56,494 bases of DNA. Source: an uncultured Algimonas sp. (GTDB lineage Bacteria > Pseudomonadota > Alphaproteobacteria > Caulobacterales > Maricaulaceae). The translations under genes were made by a program, and so were the position numbers. The stretch is taken from NCBI GenBank assembly GCA_937923575.1, contig CALDUL010000012.1, positions 1-56,494 on the forward strand. Reading direction: 5' to 3'. Shown piece by piece: positions 11,345 to 19,643 of the stretch (positions are counted from its first letter, which is position 1; the number at the start of each line of letters is the position of its first letter). The notes under the pieces were generated by a model. The model worked only from the letters and a program-made list of their open reading frames with translations, searched no databases and was not told the DNA's origin.

Positions 11345-11488
11345 AAGCGTGCGCTTAGCCGGGCAGCGCGAGCAGGGGAAGGAAAAGCGATTAGGACGCG
11401 CTTTCTAATTCGTCCCCCTATCTGGGTCATATAGAACAACCCCGCACGACACCGTGTGGGCGCACACCACAAATCGAAAGACATCATC

Positions 11489-11899
11489 ATGACCAAAACT
11501 GTCGAAAAGACCGAAACCAAGATCTCCCTCGAAGACGTCCGCGCGACGGCTCGCAAATCCGCTCTCGCCTATGTCGGTCTCTACGGTCTGGCCTATGAGC
11601 GCGCTCAGCTGCGTCTGGACCAGCTGAAAACCGGCACCGGCTCGCTCGTCGAAACGCTGATCAAGCGCGGCGAAGTGATCGAGGAAAAAGGGCTGGAGCT
11701 GACCAAGGACGCCCGCGCCAAAGCCACCGAGCTACGCAAGGAAACGGTCGAGACCGTCTCCAAAGTCGTTCCGCTGAACCGCGCCGACCGCCGTGTCGAA
11801 GAGCTGGAAGCCGAAGTCAAAACGCTCAACAAGAAGATCAAGGCTCTGTCGAAAAAGGCCGCTACACCGCGCGCCAAGACCGAGAAGAAAGCCGCCTAA
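11489..11899 (+). CDS. Phasin, PhaI/PhaF-like PHA granule protein
   Basis: A 136-residue helical, charged protein of the poly(hydroxyalkanoate) granule-associated family. A hydrophobic/amphipathic segment (SALAYVGLYGLAYERAQLRL) should lie on the granule surface. A long Lys/Glu coiled-coil region with heptad leucines/valines follows (RRVEELEAEVKTLNKKIKALSKKAA), then a basic Ala/Lys tail. The ATG at 11489 fits; 11 residues upstream look unrelated. It is the first gene of the PHA locus, followed by its own terminator (12023) and then phaC. It would coat granules and set their number and size. Confidence 0.8.
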   Translation: MTKTVEKTETKISLEDVRATARKSALAYVGLYGLAYERAQLRLDQLKTGTGSLVETLIKRGEVIEEKGLELTKDARAKATELRKETVETVSKVVPLNRADRRVEELEAEVKTLNKKIKALSKKAATPRAKTEKKAA

Positions 11900-12022
11900 G
11901 GCTCTTCTGACCTCATACCCGCCGCGCATTCCGACCCTCCCCTTTTTCGGTGAGCGCTGGCGGCGATCCGACGTCCTCAACTTCGTCTCTCTCCCCGACT
12001 GACATCAGGGGTTTCCGGATCC

Positions 12023-12056
12023 GGCGCGTGCAACTTGGGTTGCACGCGCCCTTTTT
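12023..12056 (+). terminator. Rho-independent terminator after the phasin gene
   Basis: A perfect 12-bp stem (12023-12034 with 12039-12050), a 4-nt loop and a T tract. It separates the first phasin from phaC, so the abundant phasin can be made independently of the synthase, which must then have its own promoter at 12057-12118. Confidence 0.93.
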
Positions 12057-12118
12057 GTTTGCGGCCATCGCGAAAATGCGGTTGTGTGATCGAAAGCAAG
12101 AAATCAGAGGGTGGGTGA

Positions 12119-13798
12119 ATGGCCGAGAAGACGGAAAAAGTCGGAAAACAGGCAGCGGAGACGACCACGGCAGTCAACTCCATCGTAGGCTTCCGCCGCT
12201 CCGAAGTCGTCAAATCGCTCGGTCTTATGGCGGGCTATATCGCCAAGCAGCCCAAACCCTTTGCCAAACACGTCACCGCCTATGGCAAGGAGCTGATCGA
12301 GATCGCCAAAGGCGATAGCGAGCTCGCGCCTCATCCCAAGGACCGTCGCTTCAAGGACGAGACATGGTCCAAGAACCCGATCTACAAACGCGGATTGCAA
12401 AGCTGGCTCGCCATGCGCCGAGAGCTGGATGGCTGGATCAAAGATTCCGGCATGCATCCGGCCGATAAGGCGCGCGCCAAATTCGTGACCGACCTGATCG
12501 GCGACACGCTCGCGCCGACCAACTCCCTGCTCGGCAATCCGGCGGCGATGAAAAAGCTCTACGAGACAGGCGGCAAGTCGCTCGTCCAGGGGCTGAAGAA
12601 CGCCTATGACGATCTTCGCAATAACGGCGGCATGCCAAGCCAGGTCGACGGCCGCCCCTTCGAAGTCGGCAAGAACCTCGCCACCACACCCGGCTCCGTT
12701 GTCTACAAGACGGAGATGATGGAGGTCATCCAGTACAGGCCGACGACCGAGCAGGTTTTCAAGATCCCGCTGATGATCATCCCACCGCAGATCAACAAAT
12801 ACTACGCCGTTGATCTGGACGCGCAGAAGTCGCTGATCCGCTTCCTCGTGAAATGCGGCTTTCAGGTCTTCGCTATATCGTGGCGCAACCCATCGCGTCA
12901 GCACGCGCATTGGGGTCTGGAATCCTATGTCGAGGAGCTGATCGACGCGTCGGATGCCGTGCGCAAGATCACACGGACGAAGCGACTGAACGTGACCGGA
13001 GCCTGCTCCGGCGGCACGACCATGGCGCTGATGCTGTCCGAACTGGCGGCCCGCGGCGATGACCGCGTCAATTGCTTCACGCTTATGGTGTCCGTGCTGG
13101 ACGGCAAAAAAGCAGATTCCGAAGTCGGCCTCTTCGTGACGGACTCCGCCATTGAACAGGCGCGAAAGCACTCCAAGCGCAAGGGGATATTGGCGGGTGA
13201 CGAGCTCGCGCGCAGCTTTGCCTGGATGCGCCCCAACGATCTGATCTGGAATTACGTCGTCAACAACTACCTTATGGGCGAAAACCCGCCGCCGTTCGAC
13301 GTGCTCTATTGGAACAATGATTCGACCAATCTGCCGGCGCAGCTGCACAGCGATTACCTCGACATCTTCCAGAAACGCACCTTCCGTCCCGACCGCACAG
13401 AGCTGTTCATGGACCACATCGTGGATTTGTCTGCCGTGACGCAGGACAATTTCATGGTCGCGGGCGTGACCGACCACATCACGCCGTGGAAGGCGTGCTA
13501 CCGCAATGTGCGGCTGTTTGGCGGCGAGACGACCTTCATCCTGTCGAACTCCGGCCATATCCAGAGCCTCATCAACCCGCCCGGCAACCCCAAGGCGCAA
13601 TACTTCACTAACGCGACATTCCCGCCGCGCGCGGACCGCTGGCTGGAAGGCGCGGAAAGCTATGGCGAGAGCTGGTGGCTGCGTTGGAAAGACTGGCTCG
13701 GCGAGCGCTCCGGCGAAATGAAAGCGGCGCCAAAGAGCTTGGGTAACAAAGCCAACCCACCCATCTCGCAGTCGCCGGGCGAATACGTCTTTACATAA
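12119..13798 (+). CDS. phaC: Class II poly(3-hydroxyalkanoate) synthase
   Basis: A 559-residue PHA polymerase that joins (R)-3-hydroxyacyl-CoA units into polyester at granules. The lipase-like box is GACSGG with Cys296. The Asp is D452 (VTDHITPW) and the His is H480 (SNSGHIQS). Long stretches match what I remember of Pseudomonas PhaC1: NNGGMPSQV, FEVGKNL, PPQINKYY, FAWMRPNDLIWNY, SLINPPGNPKA, SWWLRWKDWLGER. The length also equals PhaC1 (559), so this is the class II, medium-chain-length type and not the class I type expected in alphaproteobacteria. No PhaE or PhaR partner is present. The ATG at 12119 has a purine-rich site before it (AGAGGGTGGG). Confidence 0.95.
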   Translation: MAEKTEKVGKQAAETTTAVNSIVGFRRSEVVKSLGLMAGYIAKQPKPFAKHVTAYGKELIEIAKGDSELAPHPKDRRFKDETWSKNPIYKRGLQSWLAMRRELDGWIKDSGMHPADKARAKFVTDLIGDTLAPTNSLLGNPAAMKKLYETGGKSLVQGLKNAYDDLRNNGGMPSQVDGRPFEVGKNLATTPGSVVYKTEMMEVIQYRPTTEQVFKIPLMIIPPQINKYYAVDLDAQKSLIRFLVKCGFQVFAISWRNPSRQHAHWGLESYVEELIDASDAVRKITRTKRLNVTGACSGGTTMALMLSELAARGDDRVNCFTLMVSVLDGKKADSEVGLFVTDSAIEQARKHSKRKGILAGDELARSFAWMRPNDLIWNYVVNNYLMGENPPPFDVLYWNNDSTNLPAQLHSDYLDIFQKRTFRPDRTELFMDHIVDLSAVTQDNFMVAGVTDHITPWKACYRNVRLFGGETTFILSNSGHIQSLINPPGNPKAQYFTNATFPPRADRWLEGAESYGESWWLRWKDWLGERSGEMKAAPKSLGNKANPPISQSPGEYVFT

Positions 13799-13816
13799 GG
13801 GCTTTCCCACAAAACT

Positions 13817-13920
13817 CGCTCACCCCGTGCTCGACACGGGGTCCAGCTTGCAAGCCTGTGCGATGCCTGACCTTGTGCGCGCACCGATGGCTGGACCCCG
13901 TGTCAGGCACAGGGTGAGCG
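13817..13920. repeat. Long imperfect inverted repeat between phaC and phaZ
   Basis: Arms 13817-13847 and 13890-13920 (31 nt each) are reverse complements at 28 of 31 positions, with a 42-nt loop. Each arm itself contains a smaller palindrome around CGTG..CACG and ends in GGTCCAGC. It looks like two facing copies of an alphaproteobacterial intergenic palindromic repeat. In RNA it would fold into a very stable stem. The rest of the 13799-14093 gap holds the GTTAAC palindrome listed separately. Confidence 0.85.
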
Positions 13921-14002
13921 ACGGCGGACTTAGTGTGCGACGCGCACCCTCTCCACACTCGCAAACCGTGCTCCCAGTTACCCCGCTGCCTCAATGCAAC
14001 TG

Positions 14003-14031
14003 CGTTAACTATTTAACAACGCTGGTTAACG
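14003..14031. promoter_or_regulatory. CGTTAAC/GTTAACG palindrome upstream of phaZ
   Basis: A 7-bp inverted repeat (14003-14009 and 14025-14031) with a 15-bp spacer that contains a further TTAAC. It lies 63 bases before the phaZ start in an AT-rich patch, and looks like an operator for a dimeric regulator. The PhaD-type protein encoded at 15500 is the nearest candidate. No experimental consensus is known to me. Confidence 0.35.
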
Positions 14032-14093
14032 AGGTAATGTCCTAACGCGCTGGGGGCTGTGGACCCGAAGCCGATACACGCTTCGAGGACGAC

Positions 14094-15008
14094 ATGAGTT
14101 TCCAACCCAACCTGCCGCGGATTTTCTTTTCCAAATTCGGAAACCAGAAACTGCGCACTGCGATCTGGTCCGGCACGGACAAGGGCTATGGCAAGCGTAC
14201 GCCGCTGCTGTTCTTCAACGGGATCGGCGCCAACCTAGAGATTGCACAGCTATTTGCCGACACTTTTACCGGTCGCGACATCATCACCTTCGATATGCCC
14301 GGCGTCGGCGGCTCGCCCGATCCGGTGCTGCCCTATCGTCCCAAATGGGTGGCCAAGGCCGCGCGGCAGATCCTCATCGACAATGGCTATCATCGCGTCG
14401 ATGTGCTCGGCGTCTCCTGGGGCGGTGGTCCGGCGCAGCAATTCGCGCACACGAATCGTGACATGATTCGCCGTCTCGTGCTCTGCGCGACGTCTCCGGG
14501 CTGGACCATGGTGCCCGGCAATCCCAAGGCGCTGTCCAAAATGGCGAGCCCGCGCCGCTATATTGACCGCGACTTCCTGAAAAAGAATTTCGAGACGCTC
14601 TACGGCGATGCCGCTTCGGGCGTCGGCGACTTCTCGGTCAACATGGTCCCGCCGTCGATCAAGGGCTATCTGTTCCAGCTCGGCGCCATGGCTGGGTGGA
14701 GCGCCATTCCCTTCATCCGCCGCATCCGCGCCAAGACCCTCATCGTTATGGGCTCGAACGATCACATCGTGCCAGTCGTAAACGGTCGCATTCTCCACGC
14801 GCTGTACCGCCGCTCGCGGCTGGAGGTCATCGACGGGGCAGGGCATCTGTTCCTGCTGACCCGCCGCGACGAGACGGTCGAGATCATCCGCGATTTCTTC
14901 GGCGAGCCTGAAATGCCGTTCCCACATGCGGAACCGGTCGAAGTGCCGTCTGTCGCCGCCTCAATCGTTCACGCCAATGACCGCACTATAAAGGGCGCAC
15001 TCGCCTAA
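14094..15008 (+). CDS. phaZ: Intracellular medium-chain-length PHA depolymerase
   Basis: A 304-residue alpha/beta hydrolase closely resembling Pseudomonas PhaZ, the enzyme that releases 3-hydroxyacids from mcl-PHA granules. Shared landmarks are LLFFNGIGANLE, FDMPGVGGS, GVSWGGGPAQQFAH, the region MVPGNPKALSKMASPRRYI, and GHLFLLTR. The triad is Ser108 (GVSWGG), Asp223 (SNDHIVP) and His251 (GAGHLF). There is no signal peptide, as expected for a granule enzyme. It lies downstream of phaC as in the Pseudomonas phaC1-phaZ-phaC2-phaD cluster and is followed after 13 bases by a phasin gene. Synthase and depolymerase in one locus allow carbon storage and recovery. Confidence 0.92.
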   Translation: MSFQPNLPRIFFSKFGNQKLRTAIWSGTDKGYGKRTPLLFFNGIGANLEIAQLFADTFTGRDIITFDMPGVGGSPDPVLPYRPKWVAKAARQILIDNGYHRVDVLGVSWGGGPAQQFAHTNRDMIRRLVLCATSPGWTMVPGNPKALSKMASPRRYIDRDFLKKNFETLYGDAASGVGDFSVNMVPPSIKGYLFQLGAMAGWSAIPFIRRIRAKTLIVMGSNDHIVPVVNGRILHALYRRSRLEVIDGAGHLFLLTRRDETVEIIRDFFGEPEMPFPHAEPVEVPSVAASIVHANDRTIKGALA

Positions 15009-15021
15009 TCAGGAGCCTGCA

Positions 15022-15483
15022 ATGTCCGATGACAAGATCCCTTCCGACAAGAAAACGGGAGACGTCGCGCGCCGCATCTGGCTAGCGGGCATCGGCGCTT
15101 ACGGCAAGGCATTCGAAGAGGGCAAGGACACGCTCAAGGGTCTGACCGGCGGCACGTCCGGCGTCTTCGACGACCTCGCCGCCAAGGGTGAGAAGATCCA
15201 GCAGGCCGCCATGGTCAAAGGCGCGCAGCTGGCGGGCAAAGCGTCCGACCTGAAGGACGACATCAACGCCGAAGAACGCATCAGCGCCATGCGCGCACGC
15301 CTCCTGGGCGGCGGGTCCGGCGACCGCATCGACGCCGTAGAAGCGCGGCTTGCGAGCATTGAGGACAAGCTCGACGCGCTGCTGAAAATGCAGACCAAGC
15401 CAACGCCGAAACGTGCGGCGACAAGACGGACGACGACCACGAAGAAGACTGCGGCGAAGAAGAAGCCAGCCGCGAAAAAATAG
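15022..15483 (+). CDS. PhaF-like phasin with Lys/Ala/Thr-rich tail
   Basis: A 153-residue protein. The N-terminal part is a phasin domain (ARRIWLAGIGAYGKAFEEGK). A heptad-like segment follows (VEARLASIEDKLDALLKMQ). The last 35 residues are almost only Lys, Ala, Thr, Arg and Pro, like the histone H1-type tail of Pseudomonas PhaF, which binds DNA and helps share granules between daughter cells. The start ATG at 15022 has AGGAG 8 bases before it. It lies 13 bases after phaZ and 16 bases before phaD. The nucleoid-binding role is inferred from composition. Confidence 0.88.
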   Translation: MSDDKIPSDKKTGDVARRIWLAGIGAYGKAFEEGKDTLKGLTGGTSGVFDDLAAKGEKIQQAAMVKGAQLAGKASDLKDDINAEERISAMRARLLGGGSGDRIDAVEARLASIEDKLDALLKMQTKPTPKRAATRRTTTTKKTAAKKKPAAKK

Positions 15484-15499
15484 CGGCAGCGCTCGACCC

Positions 15500-16144
15500 G
15501 TGACCGCCGCGCGCTCCAAGACCAAGGACACCATCCTGCGCACGTCGCTGGGCCTGTTCAACAATGAAGGCGAGCACGCGGTGAGTTCCGTGGACATCGC
15601 CTCGGTCATCGGCATCAGTCCGGGCAATCTCTATTACCACTATAAGGGCAAGGAGCCCATCATCGCGGCCCTGTTCGAGGATTTCGAGGTCGAGCTACGC
15701 CAGGTCCTGAACGCGCCGATTAACGAACCGCTCGCGCTGCAGGACAATTGGGTCTTTCTCTACATTATCTTCGAGGAGATTTGGGACTTTCGTTTCTTCT
15801 ACCGCAACCCGGCCGAGATCGTGATGCGCGTGCCGGAACTCAAGGGGCCGTTCTCGCGCTTGCTTGCTTTGAAGGAACGCACCGCATTTTCGCTGCTCTC
15901 CGACCTCGAAGAGAGCGGCCATTTGACTTTCGGCGAGGGCGAGAAGGCCGCACTGTCCGCGCGGCTGGCGCAGCATTTCACCTTCTGGATTCAATATCAC
16001 GAGCTGCGGGACGGCTTTGAGAGCCTGCCGACAAAAGCGCTGATCGACCGCGGCGTCTATATGAGCCTGTCCATGATCACGCCCTATTGGTCGCGTGGAG
16101 AGGGCTTTGCAGAGCTTCTGCGCGAAGCCGAGCCAGTGGCGTGA
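15500..16144 (+). CDS. phaD: TetR-family regulator of PHA genes, PhaD-like
   Basis: A 214-residue TetR-type repressor/activator. The N-terminal helix-turn-helix is TKDTILRTSLGLFNNEG ... ASVIGISPGNLYYHYKGKE. The remainder is a helical ligand-binding domain with the PhaD-like region that follows the NLYYHF motif. In Pseudomonas, PhaD senses a CoA intermediate and activates pha genes, and the same job is inferred here from the locus. The start is a GTG at 15500, just before the conserved SKTKDTIL; an upstream reading from 15413 would lie inside the phasin tail. It ends the pha unit; the next gene starts 73 bases later. Confidence 0.85.
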   Translation: MTAARSKTKDTILRTSLGLFNNEGEHAVSSVDIASVIGISPGNLYYHYKGKEPIIAALFEDFEVELRQVLNAPINEPLALQDNWVFLYIIFEEIWDFRFFYRNPAEIVMRVPELKGPFSRLLALKERTAFSLLSDLEESGHLTFGEGEKAALSARLAQHFTFWIQYHELRDGFESLPTKALIDRGVYMSLSMITPYWSRGEGFAELLREAEPVA

Positions 16145-16217: not shown

Positions 16218-17609
16218 ATGACCCGATATCTGCGCCTCGCCCTCGGAACGTCCTTCGCCGCCTCGCTGCTCGCGCTGGCAGGCACGGCCAGTGCGCAGGA
16301 CATTGCGCGGTCATCCTACAACACGCAGATCGCGCTGCCCGACTTGTCGGCCGAGGACATCGCGCGCGACGTTCGCACGCAATATAATCCACGTACCGGC
16401 TCGCCCGAGCGTATTGCTCCGACATTCGATCCGTTCGAATCCGATCCGGATCTGGCGGCGGAAGCGAGCCTGCGCAGCGCCGACCCGGTGTTCGACCTCG
16501 ATGGTCGGCGCATGGGCAATGGCGCGGTGCTCGACCTGTCGCTCTATTACACCAGCGAGGGCACGCGCGATCACGGCCGCGTGCGTGACGCGCTTTATGT
16601 AAGCGGACAGCCGGTCCCGATTATCCGCCGAGACAGCCGAGAGCTCGAGTGCTCCAGCCGCGTGACCGAAACGGTCTATGAATCAGGTCGTTATTACGGA
16701 GGCTATGCCAGCTACGGCGGTCTGACGCGCGTCCGGCCGCGCTATTACGGCCATTCGGGCTTCGGCCAAGGTTACGGCTACAGCTATGGCGGCCTCGGTT
16801 ACGATCGCTATAGCTACGGCGTCGGTCGCGGTGGTCTTGGCTATGGTCGGCGGGGTCGACGTGGCCGTCGCGGCGTCCGGACTCCCGTCGCTGTACAACC
16901 GAGCGCGCCCGACGTCGTCACGCCGCACACGATCGACGGCCCAGTTTCCGATACGCACACGGGTCGCCCGGGTCGTCGCACCGGAATACGTTCTGGTCGC
17001 GGTGGTCGGGTCGTTTCTGGCACACGGACATCGCCGCGCGTTAAGCCCAAGCGCCAAAAGCCAGCGATCGTTCCGATCTCTCGCGTCCGGAATTCCAACA
17101 GTCCCGCGCCAAGGCTGACGGCGCCGAGAACGCAGCCGCGCGTACAGCCCCAGACCACGTCTCGACCCCAGACCACGTCTCGGCCCCAGACCACGTCTCG
17201 ACCCCAGACCCGGTCCCGTCCCAAGCCAGCGACCCGCTCACGGCCGGTCTCCAAGCCGCGCACGGCACCGGTCTCCAAGCCGCGTTCCCGCCCGCCGACC
17301 AACCCGCGATCGCGCGGGGGCAATCGCCAGCTGGAGCTCTTCCCGAATGGTTACGGTGATGCAGTCGTCATCTCGAGCCGTCGCGACTGCGCGCGCGAGG
17401 ACCAGCTGTCGGTCTTCATTCCGGCCGAACGGCTCGATGCCGCGCGCTTCGACGGTTTGACGCTGATCGTGCGGGATGTCGTGACCAATGGCGCAAACGG
17501 GCTGACGCAAGTCTATGACGAGCGCCCGCTGTATATTCCGCCGAACTATATCGAAGGATTCCGTCTGGCCATGTCGCGTCCAGATCTGGGGCAGACGGTC
17601 GTTCGATAG
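16218..17609 (+). CDS. Secreted Arg/Pro/Tyr/Gly-rich hypothetical protein with tandem repeats
   Basis: A 463-residue exported protein not assigned to a family. A signal peptide ends near ASAQD. The first 150 residues are ordinary (one Cys in ELECSSRV). A Tyr/Gly-rich segment follows (GYGYSYGGLGYDRYSYG), then a highly basic Arg/Pro/Ser/Thr region with four copies of a six-residue unit RPQTTS or close to it, and finally an ordered ~90-residue C-terminal domain with a second Cys (RRDCAREDQ). The 18-bp DNA repeat lies at about 17150-17215. The composition suggests a surface or matrix protein with ordered ends joined by a basic linker. It is monocistronic, with an upstream gap of 73 bases. Confidence 0.75.
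   Translation: MTRYLRLALGTSFAASLLALAGTASAQDIARSSYNTQIALPDLSAEDIARDVRTQYNPRTGSPERIAPTFDPFESDPDLAAEASLRSADPVFDLDGRRMGNGAVLDLSLYYTSEGTRDHGRVRDALYVSGQPVPIIRRDSRELECSSRVTETVYESGRYYGGYASYGGLTRVRPRYYGHSGFGQGYGYSYGGLGYDRYSYGVGRGGLGYGRRGRRGRRGVRTPVAVQPSAPDVVTPHTIDGPVSDTHTGRPGRRTGIRSGRGGRVVSGTRTSPRVKPKRQKPAIVPISRVRNSNSPAPRLTAPRTQPRVQPQTTSRPQTTSRPQTTSRPQTRSRPKPATRSRPVSKPRTAPVSKPRSRPPTNPRSRGGNRQLELFPNGYGDAVVISSRRDCAREDQLSVFIPAERLDAARFDGLTLIVRDVVTNGANGLTQVYDERPLYIPPNYIEGFRLAMSRPDLGQTVVR
17150..17215 (+). repeat. 18-bp tandem repeat inside the Arg/Pro-rich gene
   Basis: About 3.5 copies of the unit CCAGACCACGTCTCGRCC in tandem encode repeated RPQTTS hexapeptides. The first three copies are nearly identical and the last is diverged, so copy number may vary between strains by slippage or recombination. 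Confidence 0.85.
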
Positions 17610-17852: not shown

Positions 17853-19643
17853 ATGCTCACCACCTTGAAGCGAGAAGCGTCCTATGTTGGCGGGCTGGCG
17901 CGCATGTTGCGGTCCGTGAAAGGCGTTGACGCGGCCGGCAATCATTTGATCGCTGATGAGCTGGAATTGCGCGTCGACAGCTTCGGCCCGCGCCCCGCCT
18001 TCATCGAAGACGAGCGCAGCTGGAGCTATTCCGACGTCGAAGACTACGCTAACCGCGTCGCAGGGTGGTGCGAAGCGAACGGCGTAAAGACAGGCGATAC
18101 CGTGGCCGTCTTCGTGCGCAACCGGCTGGAATATGTGCCGCTCTGGTTCGGCCTGTCCAAGCGCGGCGTCATTCCGGCGCTGATAAACTTTCAGCTGACC
18201 GGAAAGGCGCTGGCGCACTGCATCAATATTTCCGAGGCCAAGCACGCCGTCGTCGACATGGACCTGGTCGAAGGCTGGAAGAGCGCGCGTTCGGCTATCG
18301 AAGTCGATCTGACGGAGTGGGCCGCCTACGGCGCGCCGGGCGAGGGCATGGAAGGCTTCGATGCCGCTGTCGCCGCGCAAGCCGCGACGCGTCCCGACAA
18401 GGCGATCCGCGCCGATATCACGGCGGGCGAGCAGGCGATGAAGATGTTCACCTCGGGTACAACCGGCCTGCCCAAAGCGGCCAAGGTCACTCACGTGCGC
18501 GCGCAGAACTATATGCGCGGGCTGGGCGCAGGCGCGAAAGCGGGCAAGGACGATCGCATGATGCTGGTCCTGCCGCTCTATCATGCGACCGGTGGTCTGG
18601 TCGGCATGGGCGCGGCGTTCACCAATGGCGGCGCGTCGATCATCCGGCCGAAGTTTTCCGCTTCGACCTTCTGGGACGACGCCGTGAAATACGGCGCGAC
18701 CATGTTCACCTATGTCGGCGAGCTCTGCCGTTTCCTGCTGTCCTGCCCGCCCCATCCCAAGGAGCGCGAACACAAGATCCAGTGGATCATGGGCAATGGT
18801 CTGCGGCCCGAAGTCTGGGAGGATTTCGTCACCCGCTTCAACATTCCGCATGTCATAGAATTCTATGGTGCGACAGAAGGCAATGTTAGCTTGATCAATG
18901 TCGACGGCCCCATCGGTGCCGTGGGCCGCGTGCCGAGCTATCTGAAGTGGAAGTTCAATATCGAGATCGTGCAATATGACGTCGAGAGCGGCAGCAATCC
19001 GCGCGGTTCCGACGGTTTTGCGATCCGCACGGATGACGGCGAAGTCGGCGAAGTCATCGGCGAGATCCGCAATGACGACCCGCGCTTCCGCTTTGAGGGA
19101 TACGAGACCAAGGAAGCGACGCAGAAGAAAATTCTGCGCGACGTCTTCAAGCCAGGCGACGCGTGGTTCCGCACCGGGGACCTGATGAAGCGCGACGGCC
19201 ACGGCTACTACTATTTCATGGACCGCGTCGGCGACACATTCCGCTGGAAGGCAGAGAATGTCGCAACCAACGAGGTCGCGGGCCAGCTGTCCGAATTCGA
19301 CGGGATCACCCAGGCCAATGTCTATGGCGTTAAAGTGCCCGGCTATGACGGCAAGGCGGGCATGGCGGCGATCGTGTCAGAAGTCGAGCCGGACCTCGCC
19401 GCGCTCAAGGCGCACATCGATGCCGAGCTGCCCCACTATGCGCGGCCTGTCTTCCTACGGCTCTCGCGTGAGAGCGAGACGACGTCCACCTTCAAGTTCA
19501 AGAAGACAAACCTCGTCAAAGCCGGGTTTGACCCCGACCGCATCAGCGATCCGGTCTTTTTCGCCAACCCGAAAAGCGGTGCCTATGAGCGGGTCGACGC
19601 CGACACATTCGCCAAGATCAACAATGGCGACATCCGTCTATGA
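17853..19643 (+). CDS. Long-chain acyl-CoA synthetase, FATP/very-long-chain type
   Basis: A 596-residue ANL-superfamily enzyme that activates fatty acids with ATP to acyl-AMP and then acyl-CoA. The AMP-binding loop is MFTSGTTGLPKAAKVTH. The A5 region reads EFYGATEGNVSLIN, and the TGD motif FRTGDLMKRDGHGYYYFMDRVGDTFRWKAENV is the FATP/VLACS signature. It is cytoplasmic or membrane-associated. It starts an overlapping gene run (its stop shares ATGA with the next gene). Placed 1.7 kb after the PHA locus and behind a sigma-54-like promoter, it could supply acyl-CoA for beta-oxidation and mcl-PHA precursors. That link is inference. Confidence 0.93.
   Translation: MLTTLKREASYVGGLARMLRSVKGVDAAGNHLIADELELRVDSFGPRPAFIEDERSWSYSDVEDYANRVAGWCEANGVKTGDTVAVFVRNRLEYVPLWFGLSKRGVIPALINFQLTGKALAHCINISEAKHAVVDMDLVEGWKSARSAIEVDLTEWAAYGAPGEGMEGFDAAVAAQAATRPDKAIRADITAGEQAMKMFTSGTTGLPKAAKVTHVRAQNYMRGLGAGAKAGKDDRMMLVLPLYHATGGLVGMGAAFTNGGASIIRPKFSASTFWDDAVKYGATMFTYVGELCRFLLSCPPHPKEREHKIQWIMGNGLRPEVWEDFVTRFNIPHVIEFYGATEGNVSLINVDGPIGAVGRVPSYLKWKFNIEIVQYDVESGSNPRGSDGFAIRTDDGEVGEVIGEIRNDDPRFRFEGYETKEATQKKILRDVFKPGDAWFRTGDLMKRDGHGYYYFMDRVGDTFRWKAENVATNEVAGQLSEFDGITQANVYGVKVPGYDGKAGMAAIVSEVEPDLAALKAHIDAELPHYARPVFLRLSRESETTSTFKFKKTNLVKAGFDPDRISDPVFFANPKSGAYERVDADTFAKINNGDIRL

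Follow-up and report, generated by a model that had tools for sequence, protein, structure and literature searches.

A class II-lineage polyhydroxyalkanoate locus from an alphaproteobacterial branch, with a conserved candidate PhaD operator

Organization of the pha locus

A polyhydroxyalkanoate (PHA) locus is present in a 56 494 nt stretch of DNA (the window) from an uncultured Algimonas sp. (contig CALDUL010000012.1). The locus lies at positions 11489–16144 in the order phasin 1–phaC–phaZ–lysine-rich phasin 2–phaD, with every gene on the + strand; a first-pass annotation of the sequence had placed all of these genes correctly. The source genome, Hellea-like and of the family Robiginitomaculaceae, was recovered as a bin that is 85% complete, with 2.58 Mb spread over 122 contigs; its PhaC is 96% identical to the one in a public 'Hellea sp.' bin from that family. 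The locus probably serves as a working polyester store and descends from an old branch of class II PHA systems within the Alphaproteobacteria. What the sequence data show directly is its gene content, orthology, phylogeny and synteny, and that an upstream palindrome is conserved.

The only phaC in the genome (12119–13798, + strand) encodes a class II-lineage PHA synthase of 559 aa. The product fits the single-subunit form (approximately 560 aa, a PhaC_N and a hydrolase domain, a Cys–Asp–His triad), with C296, D452 and H480 where the first-pass annotation had read them. It scores 713.3 bits on the class II model TIGR01839 versus 514 bits on the class I model TIGR01838. Residue 482 is glutamine in the window PhaC, in all aligned Pseudomonas rows and in 55 of 56 alphaproteobacterial class II rows, whereas all 14 class I rows have alanine.

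The phaZ gene (14094–15008, +) encodes an intracellular PHA depolymerase of the alpha/beta hydrolase type, identified by profile and tree, whose Ser108, Asp223 and His251 align with Ser102, Asp221 and His248 of the Pseudomonas enzyme. The phaD gene (15500–16144, +) encodes a TetR-family regulator (PF13972); a GTG codon at 15500 is most likely the start, rather than 15413. Pseudomonas PhaZ and PhaD queries each gave one match genome-wide, at this locus (42 and 40% identity, respectively, the latter reciprocal); both proteins had earlier been described as Pseudomonas-like. The recognition helix ISPGNLYYH is common to the window and Pseudomonas PhaD. Phasin 2 (15022–15483, +; 153 aa) is PhaF-like, passes PF05597 at 35.0 bits and has a Lys/Arg/Ala-rich tail (pI 11.8). 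Phasin 1 (11489–11899, +; 136 aa) scores 17.6 bits on PF05597, under the cut-off; its orthologues from Phycosocius and Tepidicaulis exceed the cut-off, and the gene occupies the same place in relatives. The evidence thus supports a PHA locus of class II lineage whose PhaZ and PhaD are true orthologues of the Pseudomonas proteins.

The phasin–phaC–phaZ–phasin–phaD order is kept in Robiginitomaculaceae, Parvularculaceae, Kordiimonadales and Tepidicaulis. It is not the Pseudomonas-type order that had been claimed for it, since there is a single synthase, and phaZ and phaD have a phasin gene between them that is read in the same direction. The G+C content of the locus is 60%, like that of neighbouring genes and as first described; composition was dropped as a signal of transfer, as nothing in it is distinctive.

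Phylogeny and distribution of the synthase

In a maximum-likelihood tree of 69 PhaC rows, rooted on class I, the class II-lineage synthases, including that of the window, are split from class I at 100/100. The window PhaC falls within a 35-row alphaproteobacterial clade (100/99) that takes in Parvularculaceae, Kordiimonadales (including Kordiimonas), Marinicaulis, Hyphomonas, Parvibaculum, Caulobacter and one member of the Sphingomonadaceae, while Pseudomonas PhaC1 and PhaC2 form one clade of their own (100/99). A quick 97-row tree agrees, and the PhaZ tree has the same Pseudomonas/alphaproteobacterial split. Constraining the window's family with Pseudomonas gave a tree 113 log units worse (approximately unbiased test, P = 5e-7). 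The class II reading made earlier therefore holds as to the side of the tree, with no clustering with class I enzymes, but not as to a position inside the Pseudomonas clade. Transfer from within Pseudomonas is rejected by the tree and the test. The first suggestion that any transfer is old is supported; an ancient transfer may have occurred at the base of the whole alphaproteobacterial branch.

Among 36 genomes of the window's family, 22 carry only a class II-type phaC, 10 only class I, four neither and none both; in the rest of the order, many genomes carry both types. The class II type is the only phaC in 15 of 18 genomes of the genus, and three genus members have neither phaC nor phaZ. Nine of 289 sampled alphaproteobacterial genomes (approx. 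3%) have a class II-lineage synthase scoring above 600 bits. The notion of an exceptional import of Pseudomonas type is not supported by these counts. In a phylum-wide sample, strong matches came from 16 Pseudomonadaceae and 17 Alphaproteobacteria and from nothing else. Class II genes outside Pseudomonas have been reported in Burkholderia sensu lato, Cupriavidus and Actinobacteria (PMC8231600, PMC4636328, PMC8312272). In the open-access literature, which leaves out most subscription journals, no study was found that deals with class II phaC of Hyphomonas, Parvibaculum, Kordiimonas or Robiginitomaculum, or with conservation of PhaD sites in the alphaproteobacterial branch.

Plasmid-borne class II loci of Caballeronia, Paraburkholderia, Bradyrhizobium and Pukyongiella have a MaoC gene adjoining phaC and no phaD. 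In four plasmid records (L034, L035, L176 and L177), class II-lineage synthases from outside Pseudomonas are labelled only 'alpha/beta fold hydrolase' beside a named phaZ. Two bins titled Acidobacteria bacterium and Candidatus Sulfopaludibacter (L104 and L107) carry Hyphomonas-like pha loci, and the L104 PhaD closely resembles the one from a Hyphomonas bin; these two bins are probably mislabelled or contaminated.

A competing account, to which we give somewhat less than an even chance, is that the pha cluster of Pseudomonas came from the alphaproteobacterial branch, or that both acquired it from one unsampled donor, after which Pseudomonas duplicated phaC and moved the phasins. Class II synthases occur in several alphaproteobacterial orders and, in the phylum sample, only in Pseudomonadaceae outside the class. 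The phasins, PhaD and the palindrome are present in both branches and missing from the Burkholderiaceae and Bradyrhizobium loci. In addition, the PhaD tree places Pseudomonas beside those alphaproteobacterial PhaD proteins that are encoded after phaZ (98/99). The PhaC tree, however, joins Pseudomonas to Burkholderiaceae and Bradyrhizobium (96/90), the branches are long, and the PhaD grouping is not decisive, as a tree with the alphaproteobacterial rows kept together is not rejected (P = 0.26). Nor is a tree with Pseudomonas as sister to the whole alphaproteobacterial PhaC clade rejected (P = 0.109), and the direction of donation is settled by neither test.

Substrate supply and polymer type

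The substrate required by PhaC is (R)-3-hydroxyacyl-CoA. A canonical phaB scoring above the cut-off is absent from the window bin and from 17 of the 18 genus genomes, and passes in one; the class I pairing of PhaC with canonical phaB is thus not seen with the window locus, in a genome that is 85% complete. The first-pass annotation reported no phaJ nearby. This is correct for the vicinity of the locus, but a PhaJ-like MaoC gene is found elsewhere in the genome, on contig C99, between genes that read as acyl-CoA dehydrogenases; its product is 48–56% identical to the MaoC encoded beside class II phaC in other Proteobacteria. A long-chain acyl-CoA synthetase gene (17853–19643, +; NF006134, above cut-off) follows phaD in the window and in genomes G014, G006 and G017, in two of which the phaZ unit has moved away from phaC. 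This linkage strengthens the earlier proposal that the enzyme may feed the locus, and a role in substrate supply is possible. The Pseudomonas PHA granule also carries an acyl-CoA synthetase (PMC5658603). Given the lack of a canonical phaB, the setting of the MaoC gene and the phaD-linked synthetase, beta-oxidation is the likeliest substrate route.

Between phaD and the synthetase gene, positions 16218–17609 encode a 463 aa protein with RPQTTS repeats and no Pfam or NCBIfam match. It is retained in G014 and G006, and was not found in G017.

A medium-chain or mixed polymer is slightly favoured as the product. Class membership alone cannot indicate a medium-chain product, because PhaC2 of Cupriavidus pinatubonensis JMP134, which is class II by tree and approximately 50% identical to the Pseudomonas enzymes, accepts 3-hydroxybutyryl-CoA but not 3-hydroxyoctanoyl-CoA, a preference for which Ile484 is the residue suspected by the authors (PMC4636328). 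The residues related to specificity in the window PhaC are mixed (D129, S325, S478, Q482 and I485). It is possible, if rather unlikely, that the window synthase is class II by descent but makes a short-chain (C4/C5) product, the locus being in practice a store of the poly(3-hydroxybutyrate) (PHB) type. Ile485 of the window corresponds to the Ile484 column, which holds leucine in every Pseudomonas PhaC1 and in 44 of the 56 alphaproteobacterial relatives, and Asp129 is the class I residue. Against this, Gln482 (position 481 in 61-3) is the class II residue, seen in none of the 14 class I rows; within the genus and close family Ile485 recurs only in G011 and G028, the others having leucine; and the genome lacks the canonical phaB.

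A palindrome upstream of phasin 1

Promoter comparison within the window's family revealed an 18 bp imperfect palindrome, TTAGGACGCGCTTTCTAA, at 11391–11408, ending 80 bp before the start codon of phasin 1. It has the form TTAGRA-N6-TYCTAA, of which this is the single exact match in the 2.58 Mb genome. Its position ahead of a phasin gene is conserved in Robiginitomaculaceae, Kordiimonadales and Hyphomonas. The same pattern occurs upstream of phaC1 in several Pseudomonas, in one case as the identical 18-mer, and also upstream of the Pseudomonas phasin. One Robiginitomaculaceae promoter and a Pseudomonas phasin promoter are identical over 29 of 31 bp, extending past the palindrome.

A site matrix was built from 16 training sites (six different sequences, all from Alphaproteobacteria of the window's clade) and applied to loci that had not been used for training. 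The top site of the entire locus reached a score of 9 or more in 29 of 31 Pseudomonas loci, and each of these 29 sites lay in the phaC1 or phasin promoter zones, which cover approximately 8% of a locus. Of the 40 alphaproteobacterial loci with PhaD that were scanned, 31 had a site. Overall, a site was present in 60 of 71 loci with PhaD versus none of 22 class II loci without it (nominal Fisher P = 2e-13, which overstates independence because the loci are related). Of the 93 test loci, 56 have the palindrome at the promoter of a phasin gene or of phaC; the 300 permuted matrices averaged 0.5 loci, with 14 as the highest count.

When one mismatch was allowed, three further sites appeared in the genome versus five for a reversed control pattern, so that finding them is not in itself significant. 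One of these sites, however, precedes the start of an unlinked gene by exactly 80 bp (G000 contig C42:3861–4577, locus L243), the same distance as at phasin 1, and this gene encodes a phasin-like N-terminus fused to DUF2853, which may be a granule-associated domain.

Pseudomonas PhaD binds the phaC1 and phaI promoters and acts as an activator (PMC7204398). These observations make the palindrome a candidate PhaD operator common to two proteobacterial classes. Pseudomonas PhaD operators are said to consist of 6 bp inverted half-sites 8 bp apart, which fits the arrangement xTTAGR-N8-YCTAAx. On balance, we favour the proposal that PhaD and this operator form an ancient PHA regulon that Pseudomonas has in common with many Alphaproteobacteria. 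Its constant target would be the phasin gene, the unlinked phasin–DUF2853 fusion being one such case, and control of phaC would be a Pseudomonas addition; in much of the Robiginitomaculaceae, class II would have replaced class I as the only synthase. That the palindrome is instead a core-promoter feature of phasin genes, or the site of another regulator, seems improbable. Conservation does run 3' of it, through a T-rich run and CCTA, in a promoter-like manner; however, the palindrome is dyad-symmetric, is missing from all 22 loci without phaD, and marks both of the promoters reportedly bound by PhaD in Pseudomonas.

Certain points weigh against an old alphaproteobacterial storage locus under PhaD control. 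The genome is an incomplete bin and the loci compared are not independent samples. In the window there is no palindrome ahead of phaC or phaZ, and 11 loci with PhaD, including those of Parvularculaceae and Caulobacteraceae, lack a site at the threshold. The window PhaC is below the curated TIGR01839 cut-off (713.3 versus 855.4 bits), PhaZ is below that of TIGR02240 (194 versus 250 bits), and the cut-off of TIGR01837 is also missed at the locus. As none of the 289 alphaproteobacterial genomes reaches the TIGR01839 cut-off, this value describes the Pseudomonas subgroup.

A transfer of the locus from Pseudomonas to the window's lineage is very improbable: the class II lineage, PhaD, the phasin type and the palindrome are held in common, and one Pseudomonas phaC1 promoter has the identical 18-mer, but the tree uniting Pseudomonas with the window's clade is rejected as above, the window PhaC is only 48–51% identical to PhaC1, the alphaproteobacterial branch covers many families and the C1/C2 duplication of Pseudomonas is not shared.

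Probable transcription units and proposed function

An intrinsic-terminator-like hairpin (12023–12050, +; 12 perfect pairs and a T-rich tail) lies in the gap between phasin 1 and phaC. Terminator-like hairpins of differing sequence are present in 14 of 22 related loci. The phaC/phaZ gap contains a long imperfect hairpin (13816–13921), with 32 nt arms, 91% complementary, around 42 nt (RNA z-score −5.8). Each arm matches CTGGACCCCGTGTCNNGCACNGGGTGA. A genome-wide repeat was considered and dropped, there being only one further copy of half of the hairpin, on contig C1. In G006 and G017 the locus is broken at this same gap, phasin 1–phaC standing apart from phaZ–phasin–phaD–acyl-CoA synthetase. 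The phaZ, phasin 2 and phaD genes, separated by 13 and 16 bp, look like one operon. From this spacing and the two intervening hairpins, the locus probably comprises three transcription units. No canonical sigma-70 promoter was found at the locus, and no shared palindromes were found ahead of phaC or phaZ across the genus. A possible −10 box (TATAGA at 11430) was discarded, as it is not conserved among relatives.

The gene content suggests how the locus could work. PhaC would polymerize (R)-3-hydroxyacyl-CoA drawn mainly from beta-oxidation, with help from the MaoC/PhaJ-type hydratase encoded elsewhere and probably from the linked acyl-CoA synthetase, and PhaZ would remobilize the polymer. Two phasins would coat the granule, which the lysine-rich phasin may, like PhaF, link to DNA. 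By binding the palindromes at the phasin 1 promoter and at the unlinked phasin–DUF2853 gene, PhaD could adjust the granule coat to the supply of fatty acids.

Comparison with known PHA systems

Class II PHA loci have been viewed as a trait of Pseudomonas; in the present data they make up a broad branch within the Alphaproteobacteria, which annotation tends to miss because the model cut-offs fit Pseudomonas. This branch offers synthases whose specificity residues are mixed, and the conserved palindrome yields a concrete regulatory prediction that can be tested across two bacterial classes.

The class I PHB loci usual in Alphaproteobacteria share a storage function and phasins with the window locus. 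Their PhaC, however, is 35–41% identical to that of the window and has alanine in place of glutamine at position 482, and the window lacks their canonical phaB. The clusters of Burkholderia group C and the phaC2 cluster of Cupriavidus JMP134 are alike in class II lineage, single synthase and adjoining phaZ (PMC8231600, PMC4636328), but have MaoC and often an acyl-CoA ligase beside phaC, and neither PhaD nor the palindrome; the JMP134 PhaC2 is short-chain only (PMC4636328). Class II loci of the Hyphomonas/Maricaulis type, which come from the present analysis and not from cited literature, have orthologous PhaC, PhaZ and PhaD and the palindrome before the phasin. They differ in that phaD sits between phasin and phaC in divergent orientation, and a class I phaC is also present in many of the genomes.

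The Pseudomonas phaC1–phaZ–phaC2–phaD and phaI–phaF clusters have two synthase genes flanking phaZ, and their phasin genes form an oppositely transcribed operon. In contrast, the window has one synthase, with the identity to PhaC1 given above, phasin genes upstream and between phaZ and phaD on one strand, and no strong site upstream of phaC. What the two systems have in common is the class II-lineage synthase, orthologous PhaZ and PhaD, a phasin of the PhaF type and a phasin promoter that carries the palindrome.

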